NCBI RefSeq assembly: GCF_001664485.1
Contig: NZ_CP013635.1
Coordinates: 603,631 to 667,630 of the forward strand
DNA from: Rhizobium sp. N324
GTDB lineage: Bacteria; Pseudomonadota; Alphaproteobacteria; Rhizobiales; Rhizobiaceae
Reading direction: 5' to 3'
Length of the DNA: 64,000 bases
The position numbers were made by a program, and so were the translations under genes. A model generated the notes under the pieces. It ran no database searches. It was not told the origin of the DNA and saw only the letters and a list, made by a program, of their open reading frames with translations. Every line of letters starts with the position of its first letter. Position 1 is the stretch's first letter. Below, one piece after another: positions 7,062 through 37,552 of this stretch.

Positions 7062-8939
7062 TCATCTTTGCATCGCGCGCCGCAGAGCGACCAGCCGGAT
7101 GGGTGCGTCGCCGTCGGAGCCCCGGCTGCCGTGTTCCATGCCTGCCGTACTTCTGTCGCCGTCCAACTGAAATTGATTGACCAGATTCCGCAGGCGGCCC
7201 GCCTCGGAGGACAGAGAGGCGGCGGCGGCCGTCGACTGTTCGACCATTGCCGCATTTTGCTGGGTCGCCTGGTCCATATGATTGACGGCGGTGTTGATCT
7301 CGGCAAGTCCGGTCGATTGCTCGCGCGCCGAGGTGGCAATCGCATCCATGAGCTGGTTGATCTGTACGACGTGCTCGCCAATCGCTTTCAGTGACGTGCC
7401 GGTTTCGAGCACCAGTTTGACGCCATTTTTGACGTCCGTCGACGACTTCTGGATGAAGCCTTTGATCTCCTTGGCTGCGTGAGCAGCGCGCTGGGCAAGC
7501 TCACGGACTTCTTGTGCAACCACGGCAAAACCCTTGCCCGCCTCCCCCGCACGGGCAGCTTCAACGCCGGCGTTCAGCGCCAGAAGGTTGGTCTGGAAGG
7601 CGATTTCATCGATTGCACCGATGATGTTGGAAATCTGTTCCGAACTATCCTCGATGCGTCGCATGGCCTGTTCCGCCTCCGCAACGACAGTTGCCGACCG
7701 CTGAGCGCTGATATCGGCCTCGAGGGCCACATTGCGTGCCTCGTCGGTGCGTTTGGACGCCATCGTCACATTCGACGTGATCTCGTCCAGGGCTGCGGCC
7801 GTCTCCTCGAGAGAGGCTGCTTGCTGTTCGGTACGTTTAGAAAGGTCTTGCGCAGCCGATGCGATCTCGCCGCTACCGCTATCTATGCTGTGTACCGTCT
7901 GGAGCACGGCCCCGATCGTCGTGCCCAATTGCCGGAGCGAAGCGTTGAAGTCTTCGCGCAAGGTCTCGTATTCGGCGGCAAATTGATCGGAAAGCTGGAA
8001 GGATATGTCGCCGGCTGCAAGCCGCCGAAGGCCTCCACCCAAGCTCGTGGTTGCGAAGCGCAATTGTTCGGCCTCACGTTCGGCGCGCTGCTGGGCTGCC
8101 GCGCGCACTGCCTCACTCTCGCTGCGGGAGAGAGCAGCTTCCTTCTCGAGCCTGACGACACTGAGAGCATTCTGGCGGAAAACTTCGACGGCGCCGGCCA
8201 TTTCGCCAACTTCGTCGGCGCGGCCGGCACCAGGTATGTCGCTATCGAGGTCACCGTCCGACAGACGCCTCATGGCGGAGGCGATGCTTCGGATCGGATT
8301 GGCGATGCCGAATATTGCAAACGCGATGCCTGCCATGGCGATCAGCACGGCCAGCGCTGCGATTGCGGCCGTCAACATGAAGGCGGACGCCGCGGAACCA
8401 TCGCTGGCGGCCACAAAACCTTCGGCCTGGCTGAGAATGAACGCAACCAGATCGCCCACACCCTTGTCCACCAACTCGGATTGCGGCTCCATATCTTGCT
8501 TGAAGAAACGAACCGCGTCGGCTGCCTTGCCGTTATTTTGCAGCGCAATCATCTGCTCTGCCAACCCGCGATACTTGCTCAGTTCAGGCTTGATCTGATT
8601 GATCAGTTCGCGCCCGCGCTCGGTGCGGACGCCCTTTTCATATTCGGTGACGACCTTCTCGACCGCGGCGCCGGCGGCATCGATTTTTTGTTGCCCGACG
8701 GTGCGCTCCTCCGCTGTATCCTCCAGAAGATACTGGGCGTAGACCAGTCTCAGATCGAGGAAGTTACCCTTGATCTCCCGCGCGGTCACAAGCCGCTGCA
8801 TCCAGAAGGTCCCGATCTGCTCAGTATTGGCACGAAGTGTCGAAATCGTGCTCAGCGAGACATAGGACAGGCCAACCATGAACAGGCTGATGATCGACAG
8901 CTTCACGATCAGGGCTTGCTTGATACTGGGGCGCTTCAT
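7062..8939 (-). CDS. Methyl-accepting chemotaxis protein
   Basis: Transmembrane chemoreceptor of 625 residues. Membrane helix 1 is about residues 11-31, followed by a helical four-helix-bundle ligand domain (about 32-185), membrane helix 2 (about 187-212), a HAMP domain (RSIASAMRRLSDGDLDSDIP, about 215-265) and a cytoplasmic signalling coiled coil. The hairpin tip is the highly conserved EIAFQTNLLALNAGVEAARA. There is no C-terminal CheR-tether pentapeptide. GAGGAGACCCGC precedes the ATG. The gene stands alone, facing away from vbsP. The ligand is unknown. Confidence 0.92.
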   Translation of the reverse strand: MKRPSIKQALIVKLSIISLFMVGLSYVSLSTISTLRANTEQIGTFWMQRLVTAREIKGNFLDLRLVYAQYLLEDTAEERTVGQQKIDAAGAAVEKVVTEYEKGVRTERGRELINQIKPELSKYRGLAEQMIALQNNGKAADAVRFFKQDMEPQSELVDKGVGDLVAFILSQAEGFVAASDGSAASAFMLTAAIAALAVLIAMAGIAFAIFGIANPIRSIASAMRRLSDGDLDSDIPGAGRADEVGEMAGAVEVFRQNALSVVRLEKEAALSRSESEAVRAAAQQRAEREAEQLRFATTSLGGGLRRLAAGDISFQLSDQFAAEYETLREDFNASLRQLGTTIGAVLQTVHSIDSGSGEIASAAQDLSKRTEQQAASLEETAAALDEITSNVTMASKRTDEARNVALEADISAQRSATVVAEAEQAMRRIEDSSEQISNIIGAIDEIAFQTNLLALNAGVEAARAGEAGKGFAVVAQEVRELAQRAAHAAKEIKGFIQKSSTDVKNGVKLVLETGTSLKAIGEHVVQINQLMDAIATSAREQSTGLAEINTAVNHMDQATQQNAAMVEQSTAAAASLSSEAGRLRNLVNQFQLDGDRSTAGMEHGSRGSDGDAPIRLVALRRAMQR

Positions 8940-35474: not shown

Positions 35475-36038
35475 ATGTCTGCTACGACCGGATATGCGAG
35501 CCGCCTTCTCACCGCGGCCATGCTCCTGGCACTTGCCGCCTGCTCCACCACGGAGATCGCTTCCCTGGAAGAACCCACTGCCGCGCCGATGACCGGCCAG
35601 ACCAACGATCCGGCGCCCGGCTTCGAAAACGTCGCGGCCGGAAGCGAAGAGGATTTTATCCTCAACGTCGGCCGGCGGATCTACTTCAAGCAGGATTCGG
35701 CCGCACTCGATTCCGTCGCCATGGCAACCTTGGACAACCAGGCCAATTGGCTCAACAGGAACCCGACCTGGCTGCTCAAGCTGCAGGGATTTGCCGACGA
35801 TTCCGGCTCCGCGTCCAAAATGGAAACGCTGTCGCAGAAGCGCGCCGATGCAGCGATGGCCTATCTCGCCTCGAAGGGCGTCGATCCGAAGCGCATGTGG
35901 GCCAAGGGCTACGGCAACGACCGCGAAGTTCGCGACTGCACGGATCGCTCCTGCAAGGTACAGAACCGGCGCGTTGTCACCAATCTCCGCACCCAGCCCG
36001 ACGCGGTCAGACCGCGCCGCCTGCCGCATCGGCGATAG
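35475..36038 (+). CDS. OmpA-like peptidoglycan-associated lipoprotein
   Basis: Outer-membrane lipoprotein of 187 residues: lipobox LAAC with Cys at about residue 23, a flexible linker rich in Thr/Pro (about 25-55), then an OmpA/Pal domain (about 65-175). LQGFADDSGSASKMETLSQK matches the peptidoglycan-binding core, although the usual Asp-x-x-Gly-x-Asp is altered to FADDSGSAS. CTDRSCKVQNRRV near the end may form a disulfide. Directly downstream of the L,D-transpeptidase gene, so probably co-expressed. Confidence 0.9.
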   Translation: MSATTGYASRLLTAAMLLALAACSTTEIASLEEPTAAPMTGQTNDPAPGFENVAAGSEEDFILNVGRRIYFKQDSAALDSVAMATLDNQANWLNRNPTWLLKLQGFADDSGSASKMETLSQKRADAAMAYLASKGVDPKRMWAKGYGNDREVRDCTDRSCKVQNRRVVTNLRTQPDAVRPRRLPHRR

Positions 36039-36312
36039 AGCCTCTGACATCCAAAGCGCGTGGAGATCGTAAGCCGAATTCACGAGCGATCTAACCGTTA
36101 TGCACCACGAACTGCACATTCTACAGATGAAGCTTCTGCGCTAGCTCGCTCCTCAGCCGTTGATGTCTTCGTCGAGACTTGCGACATCATCAAAGAAAGG
36201 ATCGCGCGCTGGCGACCCCCGCGCTTCGATCGTTATTTGCGGCGAAAGCCCTCTTGGCAACGAGATTATTAGGTTGCTACCTAGCATCATATTCAGCAAC
36301 GGGGGATCACAA

Positions 36313-37398
36313 ATGACTTTAATTGCTGGGCTCGTAAGGCCCCCATATTTTCTCGCTGTTGGAGACGCACTCCTTACGACCAACTCCCGCATTCACCACG
36401 ACGCTCCAATTCCGACACAACGGTTACCCAACGAGACCGAACAAATGTCTGATAGTGGCCTGTGGGTCGCAGGCCTTGCTCGGAAAATTTTCCCAATTGG
36501 CTCATTTCTGGTTCTAGGCTGGAGTGGAACAATGGGTGCCTACGAGCATTCATTCAAGTTTCTATTCGCAAACTCCCCAGATGTTATGCTGAGCTTTTCC
36601 GATTTCCAGCATTTAGTAGAGAACGCGAATCTTCCTCGCGGTTCCGATGCTAGTTGGTTCATCTTCGGCATATCTAAGGACTACGGACCGGTTTCCGTTT
36701 CTCACAATATAGCCAAAAGCACTCCAAAAGAAGGCAGTTTTAATTTGCTTGGCGGGTCTGGACGGAAGCATTTTGAACAATTTTTAAATGATCAAGCCAT
36801 AGTCCCACTAGACGGAACTGGTTTGTTCGCTGAATTGCTCGGCGCATGTGCTAAATATTTGCTGGCCCAACATCGGCAGGGACGCTTTCTGAAGGAAGGG
36901 GTTGGAGGCGCTTTCGACATTATAGTAAGTGGAGAATCGGCCTTTGAGCAACTTGATCACGTACTATATGTATTCCGCGATTATTGGGACGAGAGCGAAG
37001 CAAACCTTGTCCAGTGCGACGCACAATACGTTACTAAAACAGGCTGTACTTTCAGCAAAATCGATGCAGTATACTACGCAACTCATTTAGGCAGATCGCT
37101 GTTTGTGGGTCGCTGGCATCAAGGCGGACCAGATTTCTTTGAAATCGAAACGCCGTACCTGGAGCCTCGACCGTTGGAGAAAACGCCACATATGTGGGGC
37201 GTCGATTATGTTGTAGAAACTCTGACTCACTATACTGGGAAAAGGCCAGTCTCGATCCTTCCATCTTCAGAAGAATATGATTTTCAAATCGACGCCAGCG
37301 GTCATCCGCAGCTAAAATTTCCAATGGAGCTCTCGCAAGAATGCGAGCAAGCTCTGCGAAACTGTCTGGAAGCTCGGCGGACTGACACAGGCAAGTGA
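36313..37398 (+). CDS. Proteasome/HslV-like Ntn-hydrolase domain protein, unassigned
   Basis: The product is 361 residues with no signal peptide. The first 190 or so residues can be laid on the HslV/proteasome beta fold: after removal of Met1 the new N-terminus is Thr (TLIAGLVR), an Asp lies at position 17 from that Thr (LAVGD), GLARKIF resembles the HslV Lys33 region, LVLGWSGTMGAYEHSFKFL resembles the GFAGGTADA helix, and FNLLGGSGRKHFEQFL the GSGGNYA segment. The C-terminal 150 residues are unrecognised. No HslU/Mpa-type ATPase is nearby. GGGGGATCACAA precedes the ATG; an in-frame extension to 36160 has no ribosome site. The gene and its flanks (about 36060-37550) are visibly AT-richer than neighbours, suggesting transfer. 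The fold call is by eye. Confidence 0.75.
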   Translation: MTLIAGLVRPPYFLAVGDALLTTNSRIHHDAPIPTQRLPNETEQMSDSGLWVAGLARKIFPIGSFLVLGWSGTMGAYEHSFKFLFANSPDVMLSFSDFQHLVENANLPRGSDASWFIFGISKDYGPVSVSHNIAKSTPKEGSFNLLGGSGRKHFEQFLNDQAIVPLDGTGLFAELLGACAKYLLAQHRQGRFLKEGVGGAFDIIVSGESAFEQLDHVLYVFRDYWDESEANLVQCDAQYVTKTGCTFSKIDAVYYATHLGRSLFVGRWHQGGPDFFEIETPYLEPRPLEKTPHMWGVDYVVETLTHYTGKRPVSILPSSEEYDFQIDASGHPQLKFPMELSQECEQALRNCLEARRTDTGK

Positions 37399-37552
37399 AA
37401 GAGAGACCTCCTTGCCGACCAAGTTGGGAATCACTTACGAGACCCTGCCACGCTGCACCAACATGAGATCGCCCACAACAATCCCGGCATCAGTCGCTAT
37501 TGCGAGCGCTTCAGATAGTCTGCTTGAAATATCAGGAGAATGCAGCCTCTAG

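Follow-up and report, generated by a model that had tools for sequence, protein, structure and literature searches.

A single open reading frame in a stretch of AT-rich DNA, whose product opens with Met-Thr, raises the question of whether a rhizobium can make a proteasome-type hydrolase from a gene with no ATPase partner beside it, and of what such an enzyme might do. The frame lies in the window, by which the whole stretch of 64,000 nucleotides analysed is meant (Rhizobium sp. N324, contig NZ_CP013635.1, positions 603,631 to 667,630). According to the ORF list of the window, it runs from an ATG at 36313 to a stop codon ending at 37398 and has 361 codons. A GGGGGA sequence is found a few bases 5' of this ATG, and an alternative in-frame TTG is present 51 codons upstream; the alignment of the relatives begins at the same Met-Thr as the window protein, and three relatives (L007, L014 and L018) have a GTG start. 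No model in Pfam, NCBIfam or PADLOC matched the protein, and a phmmer search against PDB sequences returned one chance match only (E 1.7). A chance reading frame is ruled out by the relatives and by their substitution rates, with dN 0.23 and dS 0.98 between L006 and L004, and dN 0.065 and dS 0.146 between L003 and L006, a pattern that, at the level of sequence, fits purifying selection. The window gene and its closest relative, from Rhizobium sp. BT03, differ by too few changes for a verdict on selection (dN 0.006, dS 0.012). The features of the locus are collected in Table 1.

Table 1. Coordinates in the window of the Ntn hydrolase gene, its predicted functional parts and the surrounding insert.
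Feature	Position	Strand	Remarks
Proteasome-like Ntn hydrolase gene	36313..37398	+	361 aa, stop codon included; basis: ORF, relatives, model, fold
Thr2 codon	36316..36318	+	predicted nucleophile; Thr1 if Met1 is removed; invariant 13/13
Asp18 codon (proteasome Asp17)	36364..36366	+	invariant 13/13
Asp17-Lys33 loop, residues 24-50 (approximate)	36382..36462	+	mostly low confidence in the model; absent from L018
Lys58 codon (proteasome Lys33)	36484..36486	+	invariant 13/13
Trp70-Ser71-Gly72	36520..36528	+	Gly72 14 residues past the Lys; Trp70 at the place of residue 45
Gly148-Ser149-Gly150 motif	36754..36762	+	two invariant glycines flanking S, T or V
Extra C-terminal region after the Ntn core, approximately residues 237-361	37021..37395	+	from the predicted order of elements; Foldseek alignments span about 225-280 columns with gaps
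AT-rich insert between OmpA-family and beta-glucosidase genes	36016..37551 (ends approximate)	.	missing in four relatives
Decayed C-terminal fragment of a plasmid hypothetical protein, internal stop	36109..36215	-	only other coding trace found in the insert

The nearest public record is a protein encoded by plasmid pRspBT03f of Rhizobium sp. BT03 (NZ_CP125641.1), 98.6% identical to the window protein over its full length and annotated as a 'hypothetical protein'. The match in this record begins at 8001 (L019 8001-9086), whereas the annotated coding sequence begins at 8220, 73 codons inside the gene, and the annotated product thus lacks Thr1, Asp17 and Lys33. Because the annotated start omits the active site in the nearest record, proteins of this kind are easily overlooked, and start-site misannotation is a practical obstacle to noticing them.

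A proteasome-type Ntn fold is supported for the window protein by structure prediction. The sequence-only reading had proposed such a fold, with prediction and a Foldseek comparison as the means of checking it and a match to an unrelated fold as the outcome that would speak against it; the matches found were to proteasome subunits. AlphaFold modelled the window protein with a pLDDT of 76.7 and a pTM of 0.81, and this model gave 65 matches in the PDB at E ≤ 0.001, the best 50 of which were chains from proteasome entries (best E 5.4e-6). For the L014 protein, which is 19% identical to the window protein, the model (pLDDT 78.6, pTM 0.84) gave 678 matches at the same threshold, and the best 50 of these were likewise proteasome-entry chains (best E 1.0e-7), counting one titled only 'yCP' that was taken as the yeast core particle. 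The TM-scores of the window model were moderate, at 0.26-0.38 by query length and 0.37-0.62 by target length, in part because of an extra C-terminal region. In a library of viral structures, the best match was to a siphovirus protein named 'Proteasome beta type-2 subunit' (E 1.0e-5).

Profile comparisons point the same way. A ten-member profile searched against PDB sequences returned 16 matches at E values up to 10, all 16 of them HslV or proteasome subunits, individually weak (E 0.32-1.1). The 13-member profile aligned with 26 HslV-type sequences (those kept by a simple motif match from 30 Proteasome-family loci, four being dropped) with a score of 33.7, an E of 3.4e-4 and a probability of 38%, and in this alignment Thr fell on Thr, Asp on Asp and Lys on Lys; the score did not exceed 22.3 in 60 column shuffles and was 15.0 for the reversed alignment. 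When the alignment was forced to be global, the match was weaker (probability 5.8%, E 0.0019). The Pfam Proteasome model (PF00227) did not match the window protein at the Pfam cut-off; its one match among ten members had an E of 0.07, slightly worse than those of two unrelated models, each of which matched a single member (E 0.039 and 0.048). The two structural models, the register of the profile alignment and the invariant residues described below agree on a proteasome-type Ntn fold with a Thr1/Asp17/Lys33 site.

In the 13-member alignment (A3), whose most distant member is only 14% identical to the window protein, nine columns are invariant: M1, T2, D18, K58, W70, G72, G148, G150 and G198. 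Thr2, Asp18, Lys58 and Gly72 correspond to Thr1, Asp17, Lys33 and Gly47 of the proteasome. The Thr following Met1 and the Asp 17 residues along, counted from that Thr, had been pointed out from the sequence, and both hold in all 13 members; a 14th (L068), read by eye, also keeps the Thr, Asp, Lys and Gly, with Leu in place of Trp70, so homologues lacking the N-terminal Thr or Asp17, which would have counted against the assignment, were not encountered. The oxyanion glycine, Gly47, lies 14 residues past Lys33 in proteasome numbering (PMC8665760), and the distance from Lys58 to Gly72 is 14 in all 13 aligned members. The distance from Asp to Lys is 40 in the window protein and 16 in the proteasome and HslV, because about 24 residues are inserted between the two; it is 37-41 in 12 of the 13 members and 15, near the canonical 16, in the member from Ca. 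Tenderia electrophaga (L018). The strings GLARKIF (which holds Lys58), GWSGTMGAYEHSF and GGSGRKHF, read from the sequence as following the order and spacing of HslV/proteasome elements, are all present, but the spacing is right only outside this Asp-Lys loop. The further analogy of GGSGRKHF to GSGGNYA is borne out for its two invariant glycines and not for the rest, as the residue between them is Ser, Thr or Val and the positions equivalent to proteasome Ser129 and Asp166/Ser169, which have a role in the proteasome, are variable in the 13-member alignment.

In proteasomes, the S1 pocket is lined in part by residue 45. At the corresponding position, the family has Trp70, the HslV-type profile has Phe and a Plasmodium beta-1 subunit has Arg. 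The tryptophan might alter the pocket, which can be put forward only as a suggestion.

Beyond the catalytic core, the protein has two parts of its own. The additional 24 or so residues form a loop that links the strand after Asp18 to the one preceding Lys58, and PT and PNE are conserved in the loop of many members. Judged by the predicted order of elements, the Ntn core extends to about residue 232, and the remaining 125 residues or so comprise strands and a last helix modelled with lower confidence; the separate C-terminal region noticed in the sequence is thus present, but shorter than the 150 residues ascribed to it. The helices that flank the core of proteasome-like proteins are also predicted, with H1 at residues 74-86 and H2 at 95-105 in the window model (H2 at 94-104 in the L014 model), and only six residues separate H3 (151-161) from H4 (168-189), compared with twelve in the L014 model.

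Proteasome-like homologs are a known kind of protein, and PMC8665760 describes 22 new homologs or subfamilies, with more expected; it reports no genomic context suggesting a function for these 22. The proteasome-like family (proteasome beta subunits, HslV, Anbu, BPH, connectase and the 22 homologs) shares with the window protein an Ntn core, Thr1/Asp17/Lys33, the oxyanion glycine and flanking helices (PMC8665760). The features that mark the family in this sense, a proteasome beta-like fold with conserved Thr1/Ser1, Asp17, Lys33 and oxyanion glycine, are found in the members studied here. The newly described homologs also resemble the locus in the window in having no known co-occurring AAA+ partner (PMC8665760). 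Unlike the proteasome-like family, the window protein combines an Asp17-Lys33 insertion, H1-H4 and a C-terminal extra region, and it falls below the Pfam Proteasome cut-off. It resembles HslV in the register of Thr1, Asp17 and Lys33 and in an aromatic residue, Phe, where its own family has Trp70, but no HslU was recognised beside its gene and it has 361 residues, versus about 170-175 in the HslV-type proteins compared. One separate Pfam Proteasome match exists elsewhere in the genome from which the window is taken.

By their published descriptions, several described subfamilies come close to the window protein. Connectase, an archaeal protein ligase of methanogens, also has an insertion at the S3/S4 site, and some connectase variants have a C-terminal extra domain; it lacks H1 and H2 and its insertion consists of two helices (PMC8665760), whereas the window family is bacterial, H1 and H2 are modelled and the loop is mostly unstructured in the model. 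Assignment to connectase was rejected on the basis of the two predicted helices. RPC and DAH share a C-terminal extra domain with the window protein according to the text of PMC8665760, but RPC is described there as lacking H2, which is predicted in both models, and was rejected despite its C-terminal extension. PMI-5 and PMI-6 share the S3/S4 insertion; the same text gives them insertions at both S3/S4 and H3/H4, and they too were rejected, neither model having a comparable H3/H4 insertion. The family therefore looks like a further variant of the proteasome-like homologs, set apart from connectase, RPC and PMI-5/6 by these descriptions, although it could belong at the margin of a published subfamily, with DAH and DPH among the candidates (PMC8665760). 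A literature search at abstract level, together with passages of PMC13022661, turned up no further account of a family like this one.

Iterative searches yielded 13 further divergent members, with identities down to 14%, and one copy that was 99% identical. The divergent members come from alpha- and gamma-proteobacteria and from one cyanobacterium. Matches were found in five of 150 kin genomes, the window's own counted, all of them within its genus. Profile searches placed members in at least five of 385 genomes of the class, at least three of 398 of the phylum and at least three of 347 of the order (the window's own genome included each time, with samples that overlap), and in one of 78 genomes for another class, this one being the genome used as centre. 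The genome sets searched were proteobacterial, the Oscillatoria member having come from a plasmid collection, in which three of 72,556 records contained a member with the queries used: BT03, Oscillatoria nigro-viridis PCC 7112 and Ca. Tenderia electrophaga. A scan of genome contigs gave three relatives, two of them already found, leaving only L007 (Mesorhizobium) as new. No member was detected in phage records with two queries, and no relative in viral contigs with three single-protein queries; PHROGs and NCBIfam models searched against the 13 members matched single members only (best E 0.091 and 0.035, respectively). The genome from which the window comes contains another copy of the gene, 42% identical to the first and located on a 4.6-Mb contig. 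On this sampling of sequences, the family is widespread but rare.

The DNA around the gene is foreign in composition, as had been suspected from its letters: the gene has a G+C content of 48.3%, compared with 61.7% for the whole window, and a third-position G+C content of 45%, compared with 80% for the adjoining beta-glucosidase gene. In the plasmids of four relatives (Rhizobium sp. C104, R. leguminosarum WSM2304, R. acidisoli FH23 and Rhizobium sp. NZLR1), the OmpA-family and family-3 glycosidase (beta-glucosidase) genes adjoin without the insert. The same slot is filled by an Hsp20 gene in R. leguminosarum CB782 (L033 1767-2237), and Hsp20 is also among the matches to the region in R. johnstonii records; the slot is perhaps a small hot spot of insertion. 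A functional link to the OmpA and beta-glucosidase neighbours was rejected, the slot being empty in four relatives and occupied by Hsp20 in one. At the end of the OmpA-family gene (36009-36038), the window has AGA where the five relatives compared (the four insert-free plasmids and BT03) have TGA, and nine more codons follow before a TAG.

Among 408 matching plasmid records, only BT03 covered at least 80% of the 6-kb region. Window and BT03 are 99.15% identical over the insert (1513/1526), versus 94.4% (1182/1252) and 91.3% (2249/2463) over the flanks, which suggests, from these sequences, that the insert was recently exchanged; the DNA carrying the gene was probably acquired recently. No convincing repeats were found at the ends of the insert. 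The source protein of the decayed fragment within it has about 200 amino acids and no Pfam match, and 65 plasmid records, BT03 among them, match part of a 297-base query from the region of this fragment.

The ten neighbouring genes in the window that were scanned with Pfam encode two DHDPS-family enzymes, two ABC-transporter ATPases, an L,D-transpeptidase, OmpA, a glycosidase, TetR and LysR proteins and an alpha/beta hydrolase. No AAA+ unfoldase was recognised among these ten, and no HslU was present either among them or among the annotated neighbours in BT03. The remark that the gene has no ATPase neighbour thus stands as regards an unfoldase, the only ATPases being the two ABC-transporter subunits. 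At other loci, where selected neighbours were scanned with Pfam (10 + 8 + 10 proteins, called by a greedy ORF script that includes wrong-strand frames in G+C-rich DNA), the neighbours included methylmalonyl-CoA mutase, an AsnC regulator with an amidase, a TerB/DnaJ protein, a trypsin/PAN protein, an FAD-binding enzyme, a short-chain dehydrogenase and cation and sulfate transporters, and several ORFs gave no Pfam match. Except for the trypsin/PAN gene, no neighbour was shared across the loci inspected. In three Rhizobium genomes, copies of the Ntn gene (L070, L072 and L077) lie tail to tail with this gene for a trypsin-like PAN-domain protein. A functional pair, considered for these copies (the second copy in the window's genome, G000, and those in G007 and G056), was rejected; nine loci of the trypsin/PAN gene were examined, and the Ntn gene was present in three and absent from the fetched stretch in six, so that shared ancestry of the locus suffices as an explanation. 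The gene is most likely a rare accessory gene, spreading horizontally and present here as a single gene.

Taken with the computed reading frame, the predicted fold, the conserved active site with its register and the insert, the best explanation is probably a horizontally spreading, proteasome-like Ntn enzyme that acts with no ATPase partner encoded next to its gene and uses Thr1 to cut, or to cut and rejoin, a few targets. Methionine is removed before threonine by methionine aminopeptidase. The start Met would be lost in this way, making a propeptide unnecessary, and the exposed Thr1 would act as the nucleophile, assisted by Lys33 (Lys58) and Asp17 (Asp18), with Gly72 at the oxyanion hole, stabilising the oxyanion. 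A peptide bond would then be cut, or cut and rejoined, in a single protein or a small number of proteins that are exposed or unfolded, the choice of which the Asp17-Lys33 loop and the C-terminal region may help to determine. Activity of this kind, the preference for hydrolysis over ligation, the narrow range of targets and the independence from an unfoldase are all conditional in this scheme, and a household ATPase encoded elsewhere could serve the enzyme.

Other accounts of the same protein differ in how it would assemble and what it would do with its targets. It is possible, though doubtful, that it is a ring protease that assembles itself, as do BPH or the uncapped 20S particle, with H1-H4 packing the rings around a chamber that degrades unfolded or damaged proteins without ATP. 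The four predicted flanking helices and the short H3-H4 link of the window model are consistent with this oligomeric state, and BPH is described as active with no known unfoldase (PMC8665760), but the loop and the C-terminal region might get in the way of stacking. That the protein is instead a specific protein ligase (transpeptidase) like archaeal connectase, in which a lid-like loop selects one sequence to be cut and joined to another protein, is unlikely. The insertion at the S3/S4 site occupies the place of the helical insertion of connectase in the description of PMC8665760, and the PT and PNE motifs common to many members would suit a selective loop. Against this, both helices that connectase lacks are modelled here, and the loop is mostly unstructured, predicted with low confidence and dispensed with altogether in L018. 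Still less probable is a protein with a proteasome-like fold that is catalytically dead and serves as a scaffold or binding protein, in the manner of proteasome alpha subunits; the variability of the Ser129 and Asp166 equivalents would be in keeping with it, but Thr2, Asp18, Lys58 and Gly72 are among the nine invariant columns despite divergence to about 14% identity, which makes this account very unlikely.

The neighbours of the plasmid members bear on an anti-phage or plasmid-conflict role, in which the protein would, in some plasmids, be the protease that follows tagging, beside bacterial ubiquitin-like conjugation genes. On the Oscillatoria plasmid pOSC7112.01 (L017 669-12342), Multi_ubiq, E2/UBC, ThiF and DUF6527 genes are followed by a type I restriction locus, and the member itself sits between the HsdS and HsdR genes; on the Tenderia plasmid, Multi_ubiq, a JAB-like match (E 0.0054, below the Pfam cut-off) and ThiF are followed by an integrase gene and a KfrA-like gene. 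Multi_ubiq and a ThiF-family gene thus occur within about 8 kb in two of the three plasmid records with a member, and together with the sporadic distribution and the recently exchanged insert they argue for such a role. Other genes intervene in both plasmids, however, the integrase gene in Tenderia being one of them, PADLOC-DB matched none of the 13 members at E ≤ 1, and the phage records searched with two queries contained no member. A general tie to ubiquitin-like operons was rejected, as Multi_ubiq was found in none of the ten member-bearing genomes, the window's own included, in a search in which no control genome rang for it either. A conflict role is improbable, and the ubiquitin-like neighbours of the plasmid members are a lead. 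The early suggestion of a defence or mobile-element system found no support: to the PADLOC result is added the variation of neighbours from locus to locus, and the only other coding trace found in the insert is a decayed fragment of a plasmid gene. It would be a long shot to join these strands into a mobile, single-gene, ATP-independent proteasome relative, a protease or ligase specified by its loop, that partners a ubiquitin-like operon in some plasmids; if this were true, the plasmid pairing would amount to tagging and cutting reduced to a minimal pair, separate from the proteasome proper.

As a probable proteasome-like enzyme acting without an ATPase encoded beside it, the window protein adds a family missed by Pfam, NCBIfam and PADLOC to the proteasome relatives without an unfoldase. 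The two copies in one rhizobium and the natural member that lacks the loop (L018) make the question of which substrates such a stand-alone enzyme would have a testable one.
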